The notes beneath the pieces were generated by a model. That model ran no database searches and had not been told where the DNA came from. It saw only the letters and a program-made list of their open reading frames with translations. 64,000 bases of DNA from Roseiterribacter gracilis (GTDB taxonomy: Bacteria > Pseudomonadota > Alphaproteobacteria > BOG-932 > Roseiterribacteraceae), in NCBI GenBank assembly GCA_018332375.1, contig BOPV01000001.1, positions 3,224,001 through 3,288,000 of the forward strand. Reading direction: 5' to 3'. Positions 45,643-53,859 of this stretch are shown here, piece after piece. The first letter of the stretch is position 1; each line of letters opens with the position of its first letter. The translations under genes were made by a program, and so were the position numbers.

Positions 45643-46937
45643 TCCGCGCCATTCTGTTCGCCCTGGTCGCGTTGGTGTCGTTGCAGGCACGTGCAGCGAC
45701 GGATCCGCAGCGCGTCGTCAGCCCAGGTGGCATCGAAGCCTGGTTGATCGAAGACCACAAAGTCCCGGTCCTGTCATTGCGCTGGTCGTTTCTTGGCGGT
45801 TGGGCGCTCGATCCCGCCGGCAAAGAAGGCCTGGTCGAATTCGCCTGCACCTTGATGGATGAAGGCGCGGGCGATCTCGACAGCCAGACCTTCCAGAAGA
45901 AACTCGCCGACGCGAATATCGCGTTCGGCATTTCGCCCGAACGCGACCGGTTGAGCGGCTCGCTCAAAGTGCTGACGCAGTCGCGCGATCTCGGCGTCGA
46001 ACTGGCGGCGCTGGCGCTGACCAAGCCGCGTTTTGACGAAGACGCGGTCGAACGCATGCGCGCCGCGACTCTGTCGAACATTCAAGCCGAATTGGCGAAG
46101 CCGGGTTGGATCGCGGGCCGTGCGCTGGCCGAAGCGATCTACGGCAACCATCCCTACGCGCACCCGCAGCGCGGCACCTTGGCCAGCGTGAAGACGATCA
46201 CCGGCGCCGACATGAAGGCCTTCATGAGCCAGCGTCTCGCGCGCGACACGCTGATGGTTGCGGTGGCCGGCGATATCGACGCCAAGACGCTGGGTCCGTT
46301 GCTCGACAAATTGTTCGGCGGCCTGCCGGCAACCTCGCCCAAAGTCGACATCGCCGACGTGCAGCTTCCAACGCAAGGCAAGACGATCGTCGTCGAACGA
46401 CCGATCCCGCAGACGATCGTGGTCAGCGCGACCCAGGGCGTCCGCCGCAGCGATCCGCAATGGTATGCCGCGTCGCTGATGAATTACGTGCTCGGCGGCG
46501 GCAGCTTCAATTCGCGCCTGATGGAAGAAATCCGCGACAAGCGCGGGCTGACCTATGGCGTGTCGAGCGGGCTTGCGTCGTACGAACATGCGGCGTCGCT
46601 GCAGGCGAGCGGCGCGACCAAGAATCAAACGGCGCAGCAATTCGTCGACCTGCTCAAAGAAGAATTCAAAAAGATGGCCGATCGCGGCGTCACGCAGAAG
46701 GAACTGGACGAGGCCAAGGCCTACCAGACTGGTTCGCTGCCGCTGTCGATGACCTCGACCGACAAGATTGCAGCGTTGCTGTTGCAGTTGCGCCAGGACA
46801 ATCTCGGCATCGACTATCTGAAAAAGCGCAACGCGATGATCAACGCGGTGACCTTGGCCGAGGTGAATGCAGTGGCGAAGAAACTGCTGGATCCTGCCAA
46901 GCTTACCGTTGTCATGGTCGGCAAGCCGACGCAGTAA
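45639..46937 (+). CDS. M16-family peptidase, non-catalytic partner
   Basis: Exported 432-residue M16 homologue with a signal peptide ([20 protein letters not shown]). At the position of the zinc motif it reads [20 protein letters not shown], with no HxxEH, so it should not be catalytic. It keeps the conserved arginine-tyrosine region [20 protein letters not shown] that contacts substrate in the partner subunit. It overlaps the catalytic gene by four bases, which suggests one heterodimer. Confidence 0.93.
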
Positions 46938-46951
46938 CGCGCAGCGTTTGC

Positions 46952-46977
46952 GTCGTCCCCGCGAAGGCGGGGATGAC
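46952..46977. repeat. CCCCGCGAAGGCGGGG-type dispersed palindrome, copy 2
   Basis: GTCGTCCCCGCGAAGGCGGG continuing GATGAC, the reverse-orientation partner of the repeat at 28801. It lies in the 67-base gap between the M16 pair and pgi. Confidence 0.75.
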
Positions 46978-47004
46978 GAGTGGTGGGGAGCGTTTCGAAG
47001 CCTC

Positions 47005-48570
47005 ATGTCCGCACTGACCGACAGCCAGGAATGGAAGAAGCTCACCCAGCTACGTGCGACGTGGCGTGGGGCCTATGCAACGAAGGGGCGTATCGCCGCC
47101 CTGTTCGAGCAGGATCCGCATCGCGCGGAGCGCTATACGCGCGTGCTGGGCGGGTTGCGCCTGGATCTGTCCAAGACGCATCTCGATCCCGAAACGCTCG
47201 ACGCGCTGCTGGCGCTGGCCAAGGCGCGCGACGTTGAAACTTGGCGCGACCGCATGTTCGCGGGCGAGTCGATCAACCTGACCGAAGGCCGTGCCGTGCT
47301 GCACACGGCGCTGCGCGCCGAACAACCGCCGGCGCAAGTCGCCGAAGTGTTGACGCGCATCGACAGTTTCGTCGGCCGCGTGCGCAGCGGCGTCTGGACC
47401 GGCGCCACCGGCCAGCGTATTCGCACGATCGTGAATATCGGCATCGGCGGATCGGATCTCGGTCCTGCGATGGTGTGCCAGGCGCTCGAGCCGTACGGCT
47501 CGCCCGAACTCAAGACGCGCTTCGTGTCGAATATCGACGGTACGCATCTCGCGACCGCGCTCGACAGGCTCGATCCCGCCACGACCTTGTTCGTGATCGC
47601 GTCCAAGACGTTCACGACGCAGGAAACGCTGACCAACGCGACCAGCGCGCGCGCATGGTTGGTCGCTGCGTTGGGTGAGGCAGCCGTCGCCAAACATTTC
47701 GTCGCCGTGTCGACCAACGGCAGCGGCGTGAAGCAGTTCGGCATCGATCCCGCCAACATGTTCGGCTTCTGGGATTGGGTCGGCGGCCGCTACAGCCTGT
47801 GGAGCGCGATTGGTTTGCCGATCGCGCTGCAGATCGGCATGGAGAATTTCCGCGCCTTGCTTGCAGGCGCGCGCGCGATGGACACGCATTTTCGGTCCGC
47901 ACCGCTCGCCGACAATCTGCCGGTGCTGCTGGCGCTGACCGGCATTTGGTACCGCAATTTCTGGAACCTGCCGGCGCTAGCGGTGCTGCCCTACGACCAG
48001 TCGCTGGCGCGGCTGCCGGCGTTCCTGCAGCAGCTCGACATGGAGTCCAACGGCAAGTCGGTCGATCGCGACGGCAATCCGGTCGATTACGACACCGGCC
48101 CGATCGTGTTCGGCGAACCCGGGACCAACGGCCAGCACGCGTTCTACCAACTGATCCACCAGGGCACGACCGTGATACCGGCGGATTTCATTCTGGTGCG
48201 CAGGTCGCATCACCCGTTGGGCGACGGCGCGCATCAACGCATCCTGCTCAGCCACGGCATCGCGCAAACCGAAGCTTTGTTGCAGGGAAAGCATTCGCTG
48301 GAACCGCATCGGGTCTTCAGCGGCGACCGGCCGACAACAACATTCGCGCTCGACGAATTGTCGCCGTTCACGCTGGGCCAGTTGCTGGCGCTCTACGAAC
48401 ATAAAGTCTTCGTCCAGGGCGTGATCTGGAACATCAATTCGTTCGATCAGTTTGGCGTCGAATTGGGCAAGCAGCTCGCATCGACGATCCTGGCCGAGAT
48501 CGAAGGCGGCGCACGCCAGCCGCATGACGCGTCGACCAACGCGCTGATCGACTGGAGTCGCGACGCGTAA
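47005..48570 (+). CDS. pgi: Glucose-6-phosphate isomerase
   Basis: Interconverts glucose-6-phosphate and fructose-6-phosphate. The 521-residue protein starts [20 protein letters not shown]. It carries the PGI segments [53 protein letters not shown], and [20 protein letters not shown] with the catalytic glutamate and histidine region. It ends near [15 protein letters not shown]. The length is slightly short of the 545-550 usual in E. coli-type enzymes. The in-frame extension to 46867 lies in the M16 gene and is rejected. Confidence 0.96.
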
Positions 48571-48634: not shown

Positions 48635-49129
48635 ATGCGCCTGGCTTTGTGTTTCGTCGCGGCTGCATTGGCAGCCACCACCGCAGACATCTCTGCAAAC
48701 GCCGCCGACGTTACGCGCGTCCAAGGTGAATCGCCGATCGCATCGGTGGTGACGGTGCCGGCGGGTGTCGACACGATCTATCTCAGCGGCACCGTTCCGC
48801 CCGTCGTCGATCAGAACGCGCCGAAAGGCACCGTCGCGTCTTTCGGCGACACCGAGACGCAAACGGTCAACGTGCTCAAGCGAATCGAAGAAACGCTCAA
48901 AGGTCAGAAGCTGACGATGAGCGATATTATTGCGATGCGCGTTTACCTCGTCGGCGATCCTGCGAAAGACAACAAGATGGACTTCGCGGGCATGATGAAA
49001 GGCTACGTGCAGTTCTTCGGCACCAAGGAACAACCGAACAAGCCGGTGCGCACGACGGTGCAAGTCGCTGCACTCGCGGCCTCCGGTATGTTGGTGGAAA
49101 TCGAAGTCGTCGCCGCGCGCGGCAAATAA
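48635..49129 (+). CDS. Exported RidA-family protein
   Basis: RidA proteins hydrolyse reactive enamines/imines released by amine- or amino-acid-oxidising enzymes. This one is 164 residues and, unusually, has a signal peptide (MRLALCFVAAALAATTADIS, cleavage near ANA-AD), so it should act in the periplasm. The RidA core shows IYLSGTVPP, TQTVNVLKRIEETLKG and the catalytic arginine R139 in NKPVRTTVQVAALA, with the E155/E157 pair in LVEIEVVAARG. It lies 46 bases upstream of an exported flavin amine oxidase gene on the same strand, which suggests a shared pathway. Confidence 0.9.
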   Translation: MRLALCFVAAALAATTADISANAADVTRVQGESPIASVVTVPAGVDTIYLSGTVPPVVDQNAPKGTVASFGDTETQTVNVLKRIEETLKGQKLTMSDIIAMRVYLVGDPAKDNKMDFAGMMKGYVQFFGTKEQPNKPVRTTVQVAALAASGMLVEIEVVAARGK

Positions 49130-49175
49130 AAAAAGCTTAGGGCAGGAAACGACCCTCGAGCTTTTGCGAGGGAAG

Positions 49176-50759
49176 ATGGAGCAGCAGGAATCGGGCACGT
49201 CGCGGCGTGCGTTCTTGGAGCGGCTTGGCGCGGTTGGTGGCACTGCAATGGTGATGGCGGCGATGGATGCGTGGCATGTGCCCACCGCATCCGCCGCTAC
49301 GGCGCCGCCGGCGCTGACCGGTGCGGGCAAAGGCAAAACCATCGTCATTCTCGGCGCCGGCCATGCTGGGCAGGTGGCCGCGTTCGAACTCAACAAACTC
49401 GGCTATCGCTGCATCGTGCTTGAAGCGCGCGGCTTTGCCGGTGGTCGCGTGCAGACGGCGCGGCGTGGTTTCACCGCGACCGAACTTGGCGGCGAAACGC
49501 AACGCTGCGATTTCGATCCAGGCGAGTATCTGAATATCGGCCCGTGGCGCATCCCGTTCCACCACCGCTCGACCTTGCACTACACCAAGCAGTTCGGCGT
49601 GCCGTTGGAGACGATGGTCAACGACAACGATGCCGCCTGGATGCAGCACAATGACGGCAGCGGCGCGCTGAAAGGCAAGCGCGTGCGCCAGTACGAAGTC
49701 AAAACCGACCTGCGCGGTCGCGTGAACGAATTGATCGCGAAAGCCGCCACCAGCGGCCAACTCGATCAGCAAGTACGGGCGGAAGATCGCGAACTCTTCC
49801 TCGACTATCTCGCGTCGAGCGGGCGGCTGAAGAAAGATCTCGCCTATCGCGGCAGCGACTTGCGCGGTTACGTCAAACCGCCTGGTGCGGGCGACCAGCC
49901 CGGCACGATCGACGATCCGTACGGCCTATCCGATCTGTTGCAGTCGCATTTGTGGCGCGACTTCCAGGTCGGCGAGTACACCCATCCGCTGACCATGTTC
50001 CAGCCGGTCGGCGGCATGGATCAGATCGCCAAAGCATTCGAGAAGCGCAACGCGCCGATGCTGCGCTTCAATTGCGAAGTGCAGCAGATCCGCCAGACCG
50101 ACAAAGCGGTCACGGTGAACTATGTCGACACCAAGACGGGCAAGACCGCCAGCGTCACCGGCGACTTCTGTCTTTGTACAATTCCCTTGTCGGTGTTGCG
50201 TTCGATCGACACGCCGTTCTCGGACGACTTCCGCGCCGCGATGGACGACGCGACCTATGTGCCGGTTGGCAAGATCGGGCTGCAGATGAAGCGTCGCTTC
50301 TGGGAAGAAGACGACGGCATCTATGGCGGCCACGTCAAACTCGATCATCCCGCGATCCGCCAGATCAGTCTGCCGTCGAATAATTTTCAGGGGCAGAAGG
50401 GCACGCTGCTCGGCGCCTATCTGCTCTTCGACGGCGCAACTGAAGTCAGCGCCATGTCGCTCAAGGAGCGCATCGACTATGCGCTCGCAGCTGGCGAAGC
50501 GGTGTTCCCGGGAAGCTACCGCGCCAATTTCGAACGCGGCTTTTCCTGGTTCTGGCATCTCGCCAAATACAATCTTGGTGGTTGGGCGAACTGGACCGCG
50601 GAAGCGCGCAAAGACTCCTATCCCAAACTCCTCAATGCCGACGGCCGCATCTATCTCGCGGGCGAGCATCTGTCCTATCTCGGCGGCTGGCAGGCCGGCG
50701 CGATTGAATCGGCGTGGCAGCAAATCGAAAAAATCCATCAGCGAGCACAGCAAGCATGA
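49176..50759 (+). CDS. Tat-exported flavin monoamine oxidase family protein
   Basis: FAD enzyme of 527 residues that oxidises amines to imines. The N-terminus carries a twin-arginine signal, GTSRRAFLERLGAVGG then TAMVMAAMDAW, so the folded, FAD-loaded protein should be exported. The dinucleotide motif is VILGAGHAGQVAAFELNKLG, then VLEARGFAGGRVQTARRG. The C-terminal FAD-binding motif is YLAGEHLSYLGGWQAGAIES. The ATG at 49176 has GAGGGAAG upstream; a TTG at 49164 is less likely. It overlaps the cytochrome c gene by four bases, pointing to a dehydrogenase that passes electrons to the cytochrome instead of O2. The substrate is unknown. Confidence 0.92.
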   Translation: MEQQESGTSRRAFLERLGAVGGTAMVMAAMDAWHVPTASAATAPPALTGAGKGKTIVILGAGHAGQVAAFELNKLGYRCIVLEARGFAGGRVQTARRGFTATELGGETQRCDFDPGEYLNIGPWRIPFHHRSTLHYTKQFGVPLETMVNDNDAAWMQHNDGSGALKGKRVRQYEVKTDLRGRVNELIAKAATSGQLDQQVRAEDRELFLDYLASSGRLKKDLAYRGSDLRGYVKPPGAGDQPGTIDDPYGLSDLLQSHLWRDFQVGEYTHPLTMFQPVGGMDQIAKAFEKRNAPMLRFNCEVQQIRQTDKAVTVNYVDTKTGKTASVTGDFCLCTIPLSVLRSIDTPFSDDFRAAMDDATYVPVGKIGLQMKRRFWEEDDGIYGGHVKLDHPAIRQISLPSNNFQGQKGTLLGAYLLFDGATEVSAMSLKERIDYALAAGEAVFPGSYRANFERGFSWFWHLAKYNLGGWANWTAEARKDSYPKLLNADGRIYLAGEHLSYLGGWQAGAIESAWQQIEKIHQRAQQA

Positions 50760-51142
50760 AAGTCGCGGTCACTCTCTTCGCGTTGCTGGTTGCAGCGCCG
50801 TGCGCAGCGCAAGACGTTGCGGCGGGCGAGGTGCTCTACAAGCAGAAATGCGCCGCCTGTCACCAGCCGACCGGCAAAGGCGTCAAAGGCGCATTTCCCG
50901 CGCTTGCTGGCGACGCGCTGGTGCTGGGCGATCCGGCTTTGCTGTCGCGCATGTTGCTGGTCGGCAAAGGCGGGATGCCGACCTTCAAACGTTTGATGAC
51001 CGATCAGCAGATCGCCGACGTGTTGAGCTTCGTGCGCTCGTCCTTCGGCAACAGCGCAGCACCCGTGCTGCCCGACGTCGTCGCAGCAATGCGCGCAACC
51101 TTGCCCGCCAGCGGCGGGCCGACGGGACCGTTGGGGAACTAG
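50756..51142 (+). CDS. Periplasmic class I c-type cytochrome
   Basis: Small monoheme cytochrome of 128 residues with a signal peptide (MKVAVTLFALLVAAPCAAQD). The heme motif is CAACH (C32, C35, H36) and the likely axial methionine is M74 in GKGGMPTF. The domain ends near residue 100, followed by a Pro/Ala-rich tail. Translation is coupled to the amine oxidase gene by a 4-base ATGA overlap. The natural reading is that it accepts electrons from that enzyme and delivers them to a terminal oxidase. Confidence 0.93.
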   Translation: MKVAVTLFALLVAAPCAAQDVAAGEVLYKQKCAACHQPTGKGVKGAFPALAGDALVLGDPALLSRMLLVGKGGMPTFKRLMTDQQIADVLSFVRSSFGNSAAPVLPDVVAAMRATLPASGGPTGPLGN

Positions 51143-51358: not shown

Positions 51359-51380
51359 CGTTTCGTCATGAACCGAAACG
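51359..51380. promoter_or_regulatory. Palindromic operator-like site 2, covering the ArsR-type start codon
   Basis: CGTTTCG (51359-51365) and CGAAACG (51374-51380) flank the ATG at 51368. The arms match those of site 1. Binding here would block transcription and initiation, consistent with autoregulation by the encoded winged-helix protein. Confidence 0.6.
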
Positions 51381-52102
51381 TGCCTGCAGACCCCGATTTA
51401 CCCGCACTCGCCGCCGCCGTTGCTGCGCCCAGTCGCGCCGCGATGCTGCAGGCATTGATGGGCGGATTGGCCCTGCCTGCCAGTGAATTGGCGTGGCGCG
51501 CCGGCGTTGCCGCTGCGACCGCCAGCGAACATTTGTCCAAGCTGGAAAGCGCCGGCCTGGTGCGTGCGCGCGCGCAAGGACGCCATCGCTATTACGAACT
51601 CGCCGATGCGCGCGTTGCGCGCGCGGTCGAGCTGCTGTCGACCTTGGCGCCGCCTGCTGCAGTTCCCGCACCGCGCGGCTGCGGCGAGGCACTGCGCAAG
51701 GCGCGCTTTTGCTACGACCATCTCGCCGGCACGTTGGGTGTCGCGCTGGCAGATTCGTTGCTGCGCAGCGGCGCGATCAAAGAAGACGGCGACGATTTCC
51801 TGGTCACGCCGTCGGGCGCCAAGCGCTTTGCTGCGCTGGGGCTCGACCTCGAAAGCGCACGGTCGCATCGCCGGCATTTCGCACGCCGTTGTCTCGATTG
51901 GAGCGAGCGCCGCCCGCATGTCGCCGGCGCGCTCGGCACCGCGCTCGCCACGTTGATGGAAGACAGCGGCTGGGTCGCGCGCGCCAAGGACGATCGTTCG
52001 GCACGCGTCACGCCGAAAGGCTTGCGCGCGTTGCAGGACGAATTCGGCCTGTCGGTCGATGACAGCGGCTTTCGTGCGCCGACGAAACGAGGTGCGCGAT
52101 GA
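51368..52102 (+). CDS. ArsR-type winged-helix regulator with C-terminal extension
   Basis: A 244-residue regulator. Residues about 10-85 form an ArsR-like winged helix (AAPSRAAMLQALMGGLALPA, VAAATASEHLSKLESAGLV, then the wing RAQGRHRYYELADARVARAV). The C-terminal part continues with GCGEALRKARFCYDHLAGTL, a pattern known from longer ArsR-type proteins, and further helical residues to GVALADSLLRSGAI. No cluster of metal-binding Cys is evident; the few Cys are dispersed. The longer frame from 51227 is not used because the ATG at 51368 begins the domain. The stop overlaps mutL by four bases. Two matching palindromes lie at its promoter. Confidence 0.88.
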   Translation: MNRNVPADPDLPALAAAVAAPSRAAMLQALMGGLALPASELAWRAGVAAATASEHLSKLESAGLVRARAQGRHRYYELADARVARAVELLSTLAPPAAVPAPRGCGEALRKARFCYDHLAGTLGVALADSLLRSGAIKEDGDDFLVTPSGAKRFAALGLDLESARSHRRHFARRCLDWSERRPHVAGALGTALATLMEDSGWVARAKDDRSARVTPKGLRALQDEFGLSVDDSGFRAPTKRGAR

Positions 52103-53859
52103 CCATTCGTCGCCTACCCGAAACGCTGGTCAATCGCATCGCTGCGGGTGAGGTGGTTGAGCGGCCCGCTGCGGCGGTGAAGGAATTGGTCGAGAACGCG
52201 ATCGATGCGGGTGCAACGCGCATCGCGGTGCGTCTGCGCGATGGCGGTCGCACCTTGATCCAGGTCGACGATGACGGGATTGGCATGGGTCCCGACGAGT
52301 TGCTGCTGGCGGTCGAACGCCACGCGACCTCGAAACTGCCCGACGACCGGCTCGATGCGATCAAGACGTTGGGGTTTCGCGGCGAAGCCTTGCCGTCGAT
52401 TGGCGCGGTTGCGCGCCTGACCTTGACCTCGCGACGCCGCATCGATGACAGCGCCGCGACCTTGACCGTCGAAGGCGGCAAGTTGGGTCCGGTCGCACCC
52501 GCCGCGCGCGCCTACGGCACGACGGTGACGGTGCGCGACTTGTTTTACGCGACGCCGGCGCGGTTGAAGTTCCTCAAGATTGCGCGCACCGAAGCCAGCC
52601 ACGCCGAAGACGTGCTCGAACGTCTGGCGATGGCGCATCCCAAGATCGCGTTCGAACTGACCTTGGACGATCGCGTCGCGTTGCGGCTCGAGCCTGCGAA
52701 CGACTCCGCAACGCGCATCGCGTCGGTGTTGGGCGGCGAGTTCGGCATGGCCGCGATCGAGATTGCAGAATCGCGCGACGGATCGGCGATTGCGGGTTCG
52801 ATCGGTCTGCCGACCTTCAACAAATCGACCGCAGCCTCGCAATATCTGTTCGTGAACGGTCGTCCGGTGCGCGACCGGCTGCTGTTGGGTGCGATCAAGG
52901 GCGCGTATGGCGACACGATTCCGCGCGACCGGCACGCAGCATTGGCCTTGTTTCTCACCGTTCCGACGGCGGCCCTCGACGTCAACGTGCATCCGGCGAA
53001 AACCGAAGTGCGCTTCGCCGATCCGTCGCTGGTGCGCGCGCTGATCGTTGGTTCGATCCGCCGCGCGCTGACCCAACATGCGGGCCGCACCGCGCCGACC
53101 TTGGCCACGGATGCGCTGGCGTCGTTGCGGCCCTATAGCGGCGCGACCAGCATCATGCCGCACTTCGTCGGCGAAACACCGTCACCCTATTTCGAACAGG
53201 CACCGCTTGCGCTCGGCGCCGCACCTTCGGCGCGCACCTCCGAGCCGGCGGCAACGGCAACTGCGCCGACAATCGTGTCGTTCCCACTCGGTGCCGCCCG
53301 CGCGCAACTCCATGGCACCTATGTCGTGGCGCAGACCAATGACGGGATCGTGCTGGTCGATCAGCACGCGGCGCACGAACGGCTCGTCTATGAACGGATG
53401 AAGTCGGCGCTCGAAGCGGGTGCGGTGCCGCGTCAGGCGCTGCTGATGCCGGTGGTGGTCGAACTCGATTCCGGCGGCGTCGATCGCATCCTGTCGCGCG
53501 CTGACGATCTCGGCGCGCTGGGTCTGGTGATCGAGCCGTTCGGCCATGGCGCGATCCTGGTGCGCGAAGTGCCGGCACCGCTCGCCAAGGGCGACGTCAC
53601 GGCGCTGGTGCGCGACCTGGCCGACGAACTTGCCGAGTTCGATGACGCGGCGCCGTTGCGCAGCCGGATCGACGCGGTCTTGTCGCGCCTGGCGTGCCAC
53701 GGCTCGGTGCGCGCCGGCCGCTCGCTGTCGGTCGACGAAATGAACGCGCTGCTGCGCCAGATGGAACACACGCCGCTGGCCGGACAATGCAATCACGGCA
53801 GGCCGACGTGGATTGAGCTGAAACTGAGCGATATCGAGCGACTGTTCGAGCGCCGGTAG
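52099..53859 (+). CDS. mutL: DNA mismatch repair protein MutL
   Basis: GHKL ATPase that links mismatch recognition to strand removal. The 586-residue protein has all the N-terminal motifs: IAAGEVVERPAAAVKELVEN, DDGIGMGPDEL, TLGFRGEALPSIGAV and GTTVTVRDLFYATPAR. The linker is short. The C-terminal dimerisation domain has VLVDQHAAHERLVYERM, and ACHGSVRAGRSLS and QCNHGRPTW near the end. The DQHAAHERLVYE block shows it belongs to the endonuclease-type MutL expected in bacteria lacking MutH; the exact metal-binding motif was not verified. It is ATGA-coupled to the ArsR-type gene. Confidence 0.96.
   Translation: MTIRRLPETLVNRIAAGEVVERPAAAVKELVENAIDAGATRIAVRLRDGGRTLIQVDDDGIGMGPDELLLAVERHATSKLPDDRLDAIKTLGFRGEALPSIGAVARLTLTSRRRIDDSAATLTVEGGKLGPVAPAARAYGTTVTVRDLFYATPARLKFLKIARTEASHAEDVLERLAMAHPKIAFELTLDDRVALRLEPANDSATRIASVLGGEFGMAAIEIAESRDGSAIAGSIGLPTFNKSTAASQYLFVNGRPVRDRLLLGAIKGAYGDTIPRDRHAALALFLTVPTAALDVNVHPAKTEVRFADPSLVRALIVGSIRRALTQHAGRTAPTLATDALASLRPYSGATSIMPHFVGETPSPYFEQAPLALGAAPSARTSEPAATATAPTIVSFPLGAARAQLHGTYVVAQTNDGIVLVDQHAAHERLVYERMKSALEAGAVPRQALLMPVVVELDSGGVDRILSRADDLGALGLVIEPFGHGAILVREVPAPLAKGDVTALVRDLADELAEFDDAAPLRSRIDAVLSRLACHGSVRAGRSLSVDEMNALLRQMEHTPLAGQCNHGRPTWIELKLSDIERLFERR

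Follow-up and report, generated by a model that had tools for sequence, protein, structure and literature searches.

The question raised by one locus of Roseiterribacter gracilis is what a Rid protein, a flavoprotein of the amine oxidase superfamily and a small cytochrome c would do together outside the cytoplasm. The locus lies in a 64,000-nucleotide stretch of contig BOPV01000001.1 (assembly GCA_018332375.1, positions 3,224,001 to 3,288,000), here called the window, in which three genes follow one another on the + strand: rid (48635-49129), the flavoprotein gene (49176-50759) and the cytochrome c gene (50756-51142). The original prediction, made from the sequence of the window, read this trio as a periplasmic amine dehydrogenase module. 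Our analysis points to another substrate. The trio is probably a periplasmic L-amino acid:cytochrome c dehydrogenase module equipped with its own Rid3-type imine deaminase.

The comparisons below draw on a scan in which each species was represented by one genome and which returned at least 566 relatives of the flavoprotein. The best 80, 41-62% identical to the window protein, were retained; because they were ranked by similarity to the window, the shares given for these 80 loci should not be read as frequencies across the whole family. Individual relatives are referred to by L numbers. Alignments comprised 69 of the 80 flavoproteins (A2), 25 of 43 Rid proteins (A3) and 17 of 59 cytochromes (A4), each with the window protein added.

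The adjacency of the three genes and the four-base overlap of the last two, both described in the original prediction, are exact. The flavoprotein frame runs from an ATG at 49176 (a further TTG lies upstream at 49164) to a stop ending at 50759, and the start of the cytochrome gene shares the ATGA at 50756-50759 with that stop. The encoded proteins of 164, 527 and 128 amino acids match Ribonuc_L-PSP (PF01042, 65.8 bits), Amino_oxidase (PF01593, 156.8 bits) and Cytochrome_CBB3/Cytochrom_C (PF13442/PF00034, 49.2/46.4 bits), respectively. Export was judged from motifs by eye, a hydropathy script and conservation, and on these grounds all three proteins look exported, so that the proposed series of Sec, Tat and Sec signals stands as a prediction. 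The flavoprotein opens with the twin-arginine motif TSRRAFLE followed by a hydrophobic stretch, together a predicted Tat signal peptide of approximate extent (49176-49295, + strand, boundary drawn by eye), and an RR pair occurs within the first 45 residues in 79 of the 80 relatives. The N-termini of the Rid protein and the cytochrome are hydrophobic and Sec-like by hydropathy and by eye. Among the relatives, leaders passed the hydropathy cut in 37 of 42 Rid proteins and 54 of 59 cytochromes, some of the failures being due to the scripted choice of start codon; among the eight other Rid-family proteins of the host genome, no leader was seen by eye in the five that start near the domain (L097-L100, L104). 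The host genome contains one TatC, two Cytochrom_C_asm matches and one COX1.

The identity of the flavoprotein is where our reading departs from the original one. Its top solved relative in sequence searches was the L-amino acid oxidase (LAAO) of Rhodococcus opacus (2jae; residues 49-526, E value 4.5e-88), followed by tetrapod-ancestor LAAO designs (up to 3.7e-35) and snake LAAOs (3e-32 to 4e-27). An AlphaFold2 model computed from a 70-row alignment (predicted local distance difference test score 93.1) matched 2jae with a Z score of 55.0 over 476 aligned residues at 36% identity; snake LAAOs reached Z scores of 36.9-38.7 and the best monoamine oxidases about 35. Foldseek likewise placed 2jae/2jb1 first. 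Chains 5ttj and 7kho, both labelled "Amine oxidase" in the search table and taken by us to be the nicotine oxidoreductase NicA2, matched best over residues 6-106 with E values of about 1e-7, and no sequence kinship to the NicA2/Pnao type was found beyond the start of the protein, which binds flavin adenine dinucleotide (FAD). The NicA2 chains were also not among the 50 structural matches listed for the model, which is no proof of their absence. Given these differences in E value, matched span and Z score, we rejected a NicA2-type identity. An amine dehydrogenase of the NicA2/Pnao kind would belong to the same superfamily and would share the design of NicA2 and its cytochrome CycN, a Tat-exported flavoprotein paired with a Sec-exported cytochrome c; set against the LAAO-type sequence and fold and the invariant carboxylate-binding arginine described next, this explanation is very improbable.

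Arg125 (codon 49548-49550, + strand), the substrate-carboxylate arginine of LAAOs, is invariant in 70 of 70 rows and aligns with the arginine of R. opacus LAAO and of the tetrapod-ancestor LAAO. Lys366 (codon 50271-50273, + strand), which by position we take to be the flavin-N5 lysine of the family, is equally invariant (70/70). Tyr415 (codon 50418-50420, + strand) is Tyr in 65 and Phe in 5 of the 70 rows; we take it to be the carboxylate-binding tyrosine of LAAOs, on the basis of the sequence alignment and of the R. opacus numbering as we assume it. With full-length similarity, the closest fold and the carboxylate-binding Arg/Tyr pair all present, the flavoprotein belongs to the LAAO branch. 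The roles of the arginine, tyrosine and lysine in LAAOs have been described (PMC9814856, PMC9331233), as has that of the lysine at flavin N5 (PMC12224317). Because the protein is LAAO-type by sequence, by structure and by Arg125, an L-amino acid rather than an amine is its most likely substrate, and the term "amine dehydrogenase" has to be given up. Two other positions distinguish the flavoproteins of the window's clade (defined below): position 399 (Leu399 in the window, codon 50370-50372) is Leu in 15 of 23 rows of that clade, whereas the remaining 47 rows of A2 all have Tyr; at position 386, 22 of the 23 rows have His and most of the others Ile. These differences possibly reflect divergence at the substrate or flavin site.

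The Rid protein had been proposed to hydrolyse the imine product, and its closest solved relatives favour this assignment. Its best PDB matches were PSPTO3006 (9bka, 1.6e-39) and PFL1385 (9bkc, 9.9e-37). Ile35, Arg139 and Glu155/157 are invariant in all 26 rows of A3, Arg139 (codon 49049-49051, + strand) being the counterpart of the catalytic arginine of RidA in a positional match to the Escherichia coli protein that we assume. Members of the Rid3 subfamily retain the catalytic Arg and Glu and carry Ile in place of the RidA Tyr (PMC4433059), the same pattern as in the window protein. RidA genes, and sometimes Rid3 genes, have been reported to cluster with FAD amine oxidases (PMC4433059). PFL_1385 and PSPTO_3006 are Rid3 imine deaminases in vitro, where they reduce the semicarbazone formed from LAAO-made imines (PMC5619798); by analogy, the window protein is most likely a Rid3 imine deaminase as well. 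Among the nine Rid-family matches in the host genome, the copy in the window is the top match to the exported type (7.5e-75, next match 1.8e-14).

The third protein is a small mono-haem cytochrome c with the haem-binding motif CAACH at 50849-50863 (+ strand). Cys32, Cys35 and His36 are invariant in 18 of 18 rows of A4, and CxxCH was found in all 59 cytochromes encoded beside the relatives' flavoproteins. In a study of 25 characterised flavin amine oxidase (FAO) proteins, Akram et al. (2025) found that a Tat-exported FAO adjoining a Sec-exported cytochrome c predicts a cytochrome-using dehydrogenase well (PMC12224317). By motif and hydropathy the trio shows this signpost, and since the pairing predicts dehydrogenases, cytochrome c is the likely acceptor of the flavoprotein's electrons; as the best guess under the rule of Akram et al., this part of the original prediction is retained. 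The parallel that it drew with NicA2 and CycN survives for the export and pairing design and fails for the flavoprotein, which is LAAO-type and not NicA2-type.

Within 2.5 kb of the flavoprotein gene we found a cytochrome c gene in 59 of the 80 loci, a strong Rid match (E < 1e-15) in 42 and both in 32. The grouping is thus not unique to this genome, and an exported Rid protein beside its imine source, considered unusual at first, recurs in just over half of the relatives (42/80) and also in the LAO1/LAO2 system of Chlamydomonas. For the 64 loci with more than 2.5 kb of sequence on either side, the corresponding counts are 30 with both genes, 17 with the cytochrome only, 7 with Rid only and 10 with neither. 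All 59 cytochrome genes lie downstream on the same strand, with a median gap of 5 bp, and 17 overlap the flavoprotein gene by 4 bp as in the window; start codons of the relatives were chosen by script, and the gaps of -169 (L041) and -20 (L032) are artefacts or open starts. The Rid gene is less fixed in position: 29 of the 42 follow the order flavoprotein-cytochrome-rid on one strand, 9 adjoin the flavoprotein gene where no cytochrome is present, 2 precede it, the arrangement seen in the window (L078, Sphingobium; L084, Caulobacteraceae), and the last 2 are on the opposite strand, including that of L017, the nearest relative of the window. A weak Rid match in L083 (E 2e-5) was not counted, and the Rid gene of L082 (3e-42) lies more than 3 kb upstream and was not scored as adjacent.

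A quick tree of the flavoproteins, with support from the Shimodaira-Hasegawa-like approximate likelihood ratio test only, was computed from all 80 relatives, the window and six of the seven additional relatives L010-L016, which lie outside the 80 (L015 was omitted); several long rows (L013, L048, L014 and others) are of uncertain placement. The window pairs with L017, an uncultured bacterium (61% identity), in a clade of 28 rows that come mainly from Oxalobacteraceae, Caulobacteraceae and Trueperaceae. A second clade of 36 rows holds Acetobacteraceae, Rhizobiales, Xanthomonadales, further Caulobacteraceae and others. In both clades most rows have a cytochrome and many have a Rid gene. On this tree the presence of the cytochrome requires a minimum of 4 changes and the adjacency of Rid 16. 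The cytochromes themselves form two sets, one of 26 that includes the window and one of 34, separated by one branch with a support of 99, and this split matches the two cytochrome-bearing flavoprotein clades, which points to co-inheritance. In comparison with the window cytochrome, the median score of the second set was 48.7 bits and thus did not exceed the 55 bits of 8gy2_B, a cytochrome subunit from an alcohol dehydrogenase; separate recruitment of the two cytochrome types is therefore possible. In our estimate it is evenly balanced whether the LAAO-type enzymes make up one or two further lineages outside the NicA2/Pnao clades, with a dedicated cytochrome c in place of O2 as oxidant.

From the order and conserved linkage of the genes, the export-type leaders, the protein families and the conserved residues, we infer the following catalysis, electron route and periplasmic imine hydrolysis. 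The Tat-exported LAAO-type flavoprotein, to judge by its family and active-site residues, would oxidise an L-amino acid from the periplasm or the cell exterior to the imino acid. The reduced FAD would then pass its electrons to the co-translated mono-haem cytochrome c, with O2 not the main acceptor, and the cytochrome would deliver them to a haem-copper oxidase; gene pairing and the signpost rule suggest both steps. Finally, the exported Rid3 protein, by comparison with its tested relatives, would convert the imino acid to the 2-oxo acid and ammonium.

Several observations weigh against this scheme, and most of them bear on its main rival, a true periplasmic L-amino acid oxidase that uses O2 and makes H2O2, with the cytochrome as an accessory that scavenges peroxide or serves another step. 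The nearest solved homologue of the flavoprotein, R. opacus LAAO, is itself an O2-using oxidase, and Lys366, a lysine associated with O2 reactivity, is retained. Some relatives have no cytochrome nearby: all six Bacilli and the Gemmatimonadaceae row carry Rid without it, two of the three cyanobacteria carry Rid and the third has neither gene, and all eight Cytophagia lack both, so that the cytochrome is not essential to the chemistry of the family. Tat-exported FAOs without an adjacent cytochrome c mostly react fast with O2, and the cytochromes paired with the enzymes of clade 1 in the tree of Akram et al. reacted poorly in vitro (PMC12224317). Chlamydomonas LAO1 forms extracellular H2O2 alongside a RidA partner (PMC10805672). 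Two points work the other way. The same lysine is retained in dehydrogenases too, which softens the argument from Lys366 (PMC12224317), and the cytochrome is tightly linked to the flavoprotein gene in 59 of 80 loci and co-inherited with it. We regard an O2-using oxidase as unlikely here. Another explanation, compatible with the dehydrogenase module, gives it a biosynthetic or signalling purpose, such as the supply of a 2-oxo acid like indole-3-pyruvate on a route to auxin, with energy secondary. Loss of lao in Gluconacetobacter diazotrophicus abolishes indole-3-acetic acid (IAA; PMC5053998), and Chlamydomonas LAO1 makes IAA (PMC10805672). The occurrence of relatives in Bacilli, cyanobacteria, Trueperaceae and Cytophagia argues against a single plant-linked product, and we consider such a purpose a doubtful primary role.

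The distribution close to the host also speaks against the periplasmic dehydrogenase module as a stable trait. A search of 59 related genomes, a number that includes the host's own, gave a match in only 7, and the sole genome of the same genus gave none for the flavoprotein. Three genomes of the same family hold four copies that are 42-43% identical to the window protein, none of them inside its clade; within 1.5 kb, L010 has a cytochrome, L016 a Rid gene, and L011 and L012 neither. Among the 80 loci, 38 show no strong Rid match within 2.5 kb (for 11 of the 38, the sequence on one side is shorter than 2.5 kb). In 7 of 15 genomes sampled from loci lacking an adjacent strong Rid, a strong match (E < 1e-55) lies elsewhere, so local absence does not mean absence from the genome; the other eight, including the four Cytophagia tried, gave weak matches only (best 6.9e-14). 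Because a promoter scan found no promoter-like site at the trio, its transcription as a single unit is unproven. In the open-access full-text literature we found no experiment on the window's LAAO clade and no kinetic data for the reaction between an LAAO-type enzyme and its paired cytochrome.

If the dehydrogenase module is real, many proteins annotated as L-amino acid oxidases would be cytochrome-using dehydrogenases, and many bacteria would be able to obtain respiratory electrons and ammonium from amino acids that are never imported, with no H2O2 produced and the reactive imine destroyed where it is formed. As some members of the LAAO family are paired with a cytochrome and others are not, and many come with an exported imine hydrolase of their own, the family would then offer a test set for what determines O2 reactivity and oxidant switching.

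Around the trio, a phosphoglucose isomerase gene lies upstream (open reading frame [ORF] 46867-48570), an ArsR/SmtB-type regulator gene follows directly (51368-52102; NCBIfam HTH_metalloreg, 59.1 bits) and a presumably mutL-like gene lies further downstream (52099-53859). A terminator scan gave 5 terminator-like sites, an uninformative number given that shuffled sequence averaged 3.5, and in an Rfam scan of the window nothing reached the gathering score. Among the relatives' loci, the 25 largest neighbour clusters, part of them annotated, include the trio itself, apparent shadow ORFs and clusters of 6-10 loci, such as helicase-like genes mostly from Oxalobacteraceae and a gene resembling short-chain dehydrogenases/reductases in 9 loci of mixed phyla; these and similar clusters were set aside as common families. 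One scan of viral contigs with a single-protein query returned no viral relatives. The eight Cytophagia relatives (L042, L050, L043, L053, L068, L071, L090, L095) adjoin a gene resembling class I/II pyridoxal phosphate-dependent aminotransferases, with an RR-type start, and a gene for a protein with a hydrophobic leader, which in L042 and L050, the two run through Pfam, has a C-terminal Hint module (neighbour coordinates L042:7698-8867, L042:9306-10355 on the - strand and L050:7726-8745). In Sphingobium fontiphilum the cytochrome gene is followed by a related PF00155 aminotransferase gene (L078:7907-9103), likewise with an RR-type start, which links the two kinds of neighbourhood. In an alphaproteobacterial metagenome-assembled genome, four flavoprotein-like genes stand in tandem (L048:2133-9287) with no cytochrome or Rid match in the stretch examined; the copy inspected has KR in place of RR.

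The original prediction knew of no earlier account of a system with these three parts, and here it was overtaken by earlier work. The cluster lao-cccA-ridA of G. diazotrophicus PAL5 (GDI2456, 2455, 2454) was reported in 2016 (PMC5053998). In that organism, it was transposon insertions in lao that abolished IAA; transcripts of lao, cccA and ridA all dropped in the mutant, and no single knockouts of cccA or ridA were made. The authors noted a Tat signal on the LAAO, proposed that cytochrome c helps to transfer the electrons and that RidA assists at the imine step, and cited both ccm mutants with 5% IAA and the same organisation in Caulobacter crescentus and Xanthomonas (PMC5053998). The trio resembles this cluster in that the genes of a Tat-exported LAAO, a cytochrome c and a Rid protein are adjacent, and differs from it in gene order (rid, flavoprotein, cytochrome). 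We infer that the G. diazotrophicus flavoprotein groups with those of Acetobacteraceae L094 and L073; the window protein is 41-43% identical to these two and lies in the other clade.

Other known systems share parts of the design. The trio pairs a Tat-exported flavoprotein with a Sec-exported cytochrome c in an operon-like arrangement, as do NicA2/Pnao and CycN in Pseudomonas putida S16 and the FAO dehydrogenases studied by Akram et al.; unlike NicA2/Pnao, its flavoprotein is LAAO-type in sequence and fold, and the terms "L-amino acid" and "RidA" are absent from the main text of that study (PMC12224317). Chlamydomonas reinhardtii has a periplasmic LAO1 with LAO2/RIDA, again a pairing of LAAO and Rid protein located beyond the cytoplasm, in a report that cites the G. 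diazotrophicus cluster (PMC10805672); that system is eukaryotic and forms H2O2, and the relevant passages of PMC10805672 and PMC5053998 mention no cytochrome partner. A cyanobacterial L-arginine-oxidising flavoprotein has been suspected to feed the electron transport chain instead of O2 (PMC2242806), perhaps an older hint in the same direction. R. opacus LAAO shares the fold and the carboxylate arginine of the window flavoprotein, as PFL_1385 and PSPTO_3006 share the family of its Rid protein. The trio is real and widely conserved, but its kind is already in print; what is new beside these systems is the survey, the assignment to LAAOs instead of amine-oxidising enzymes, the second clade and the natural series of relatives with and without a cytochrome.

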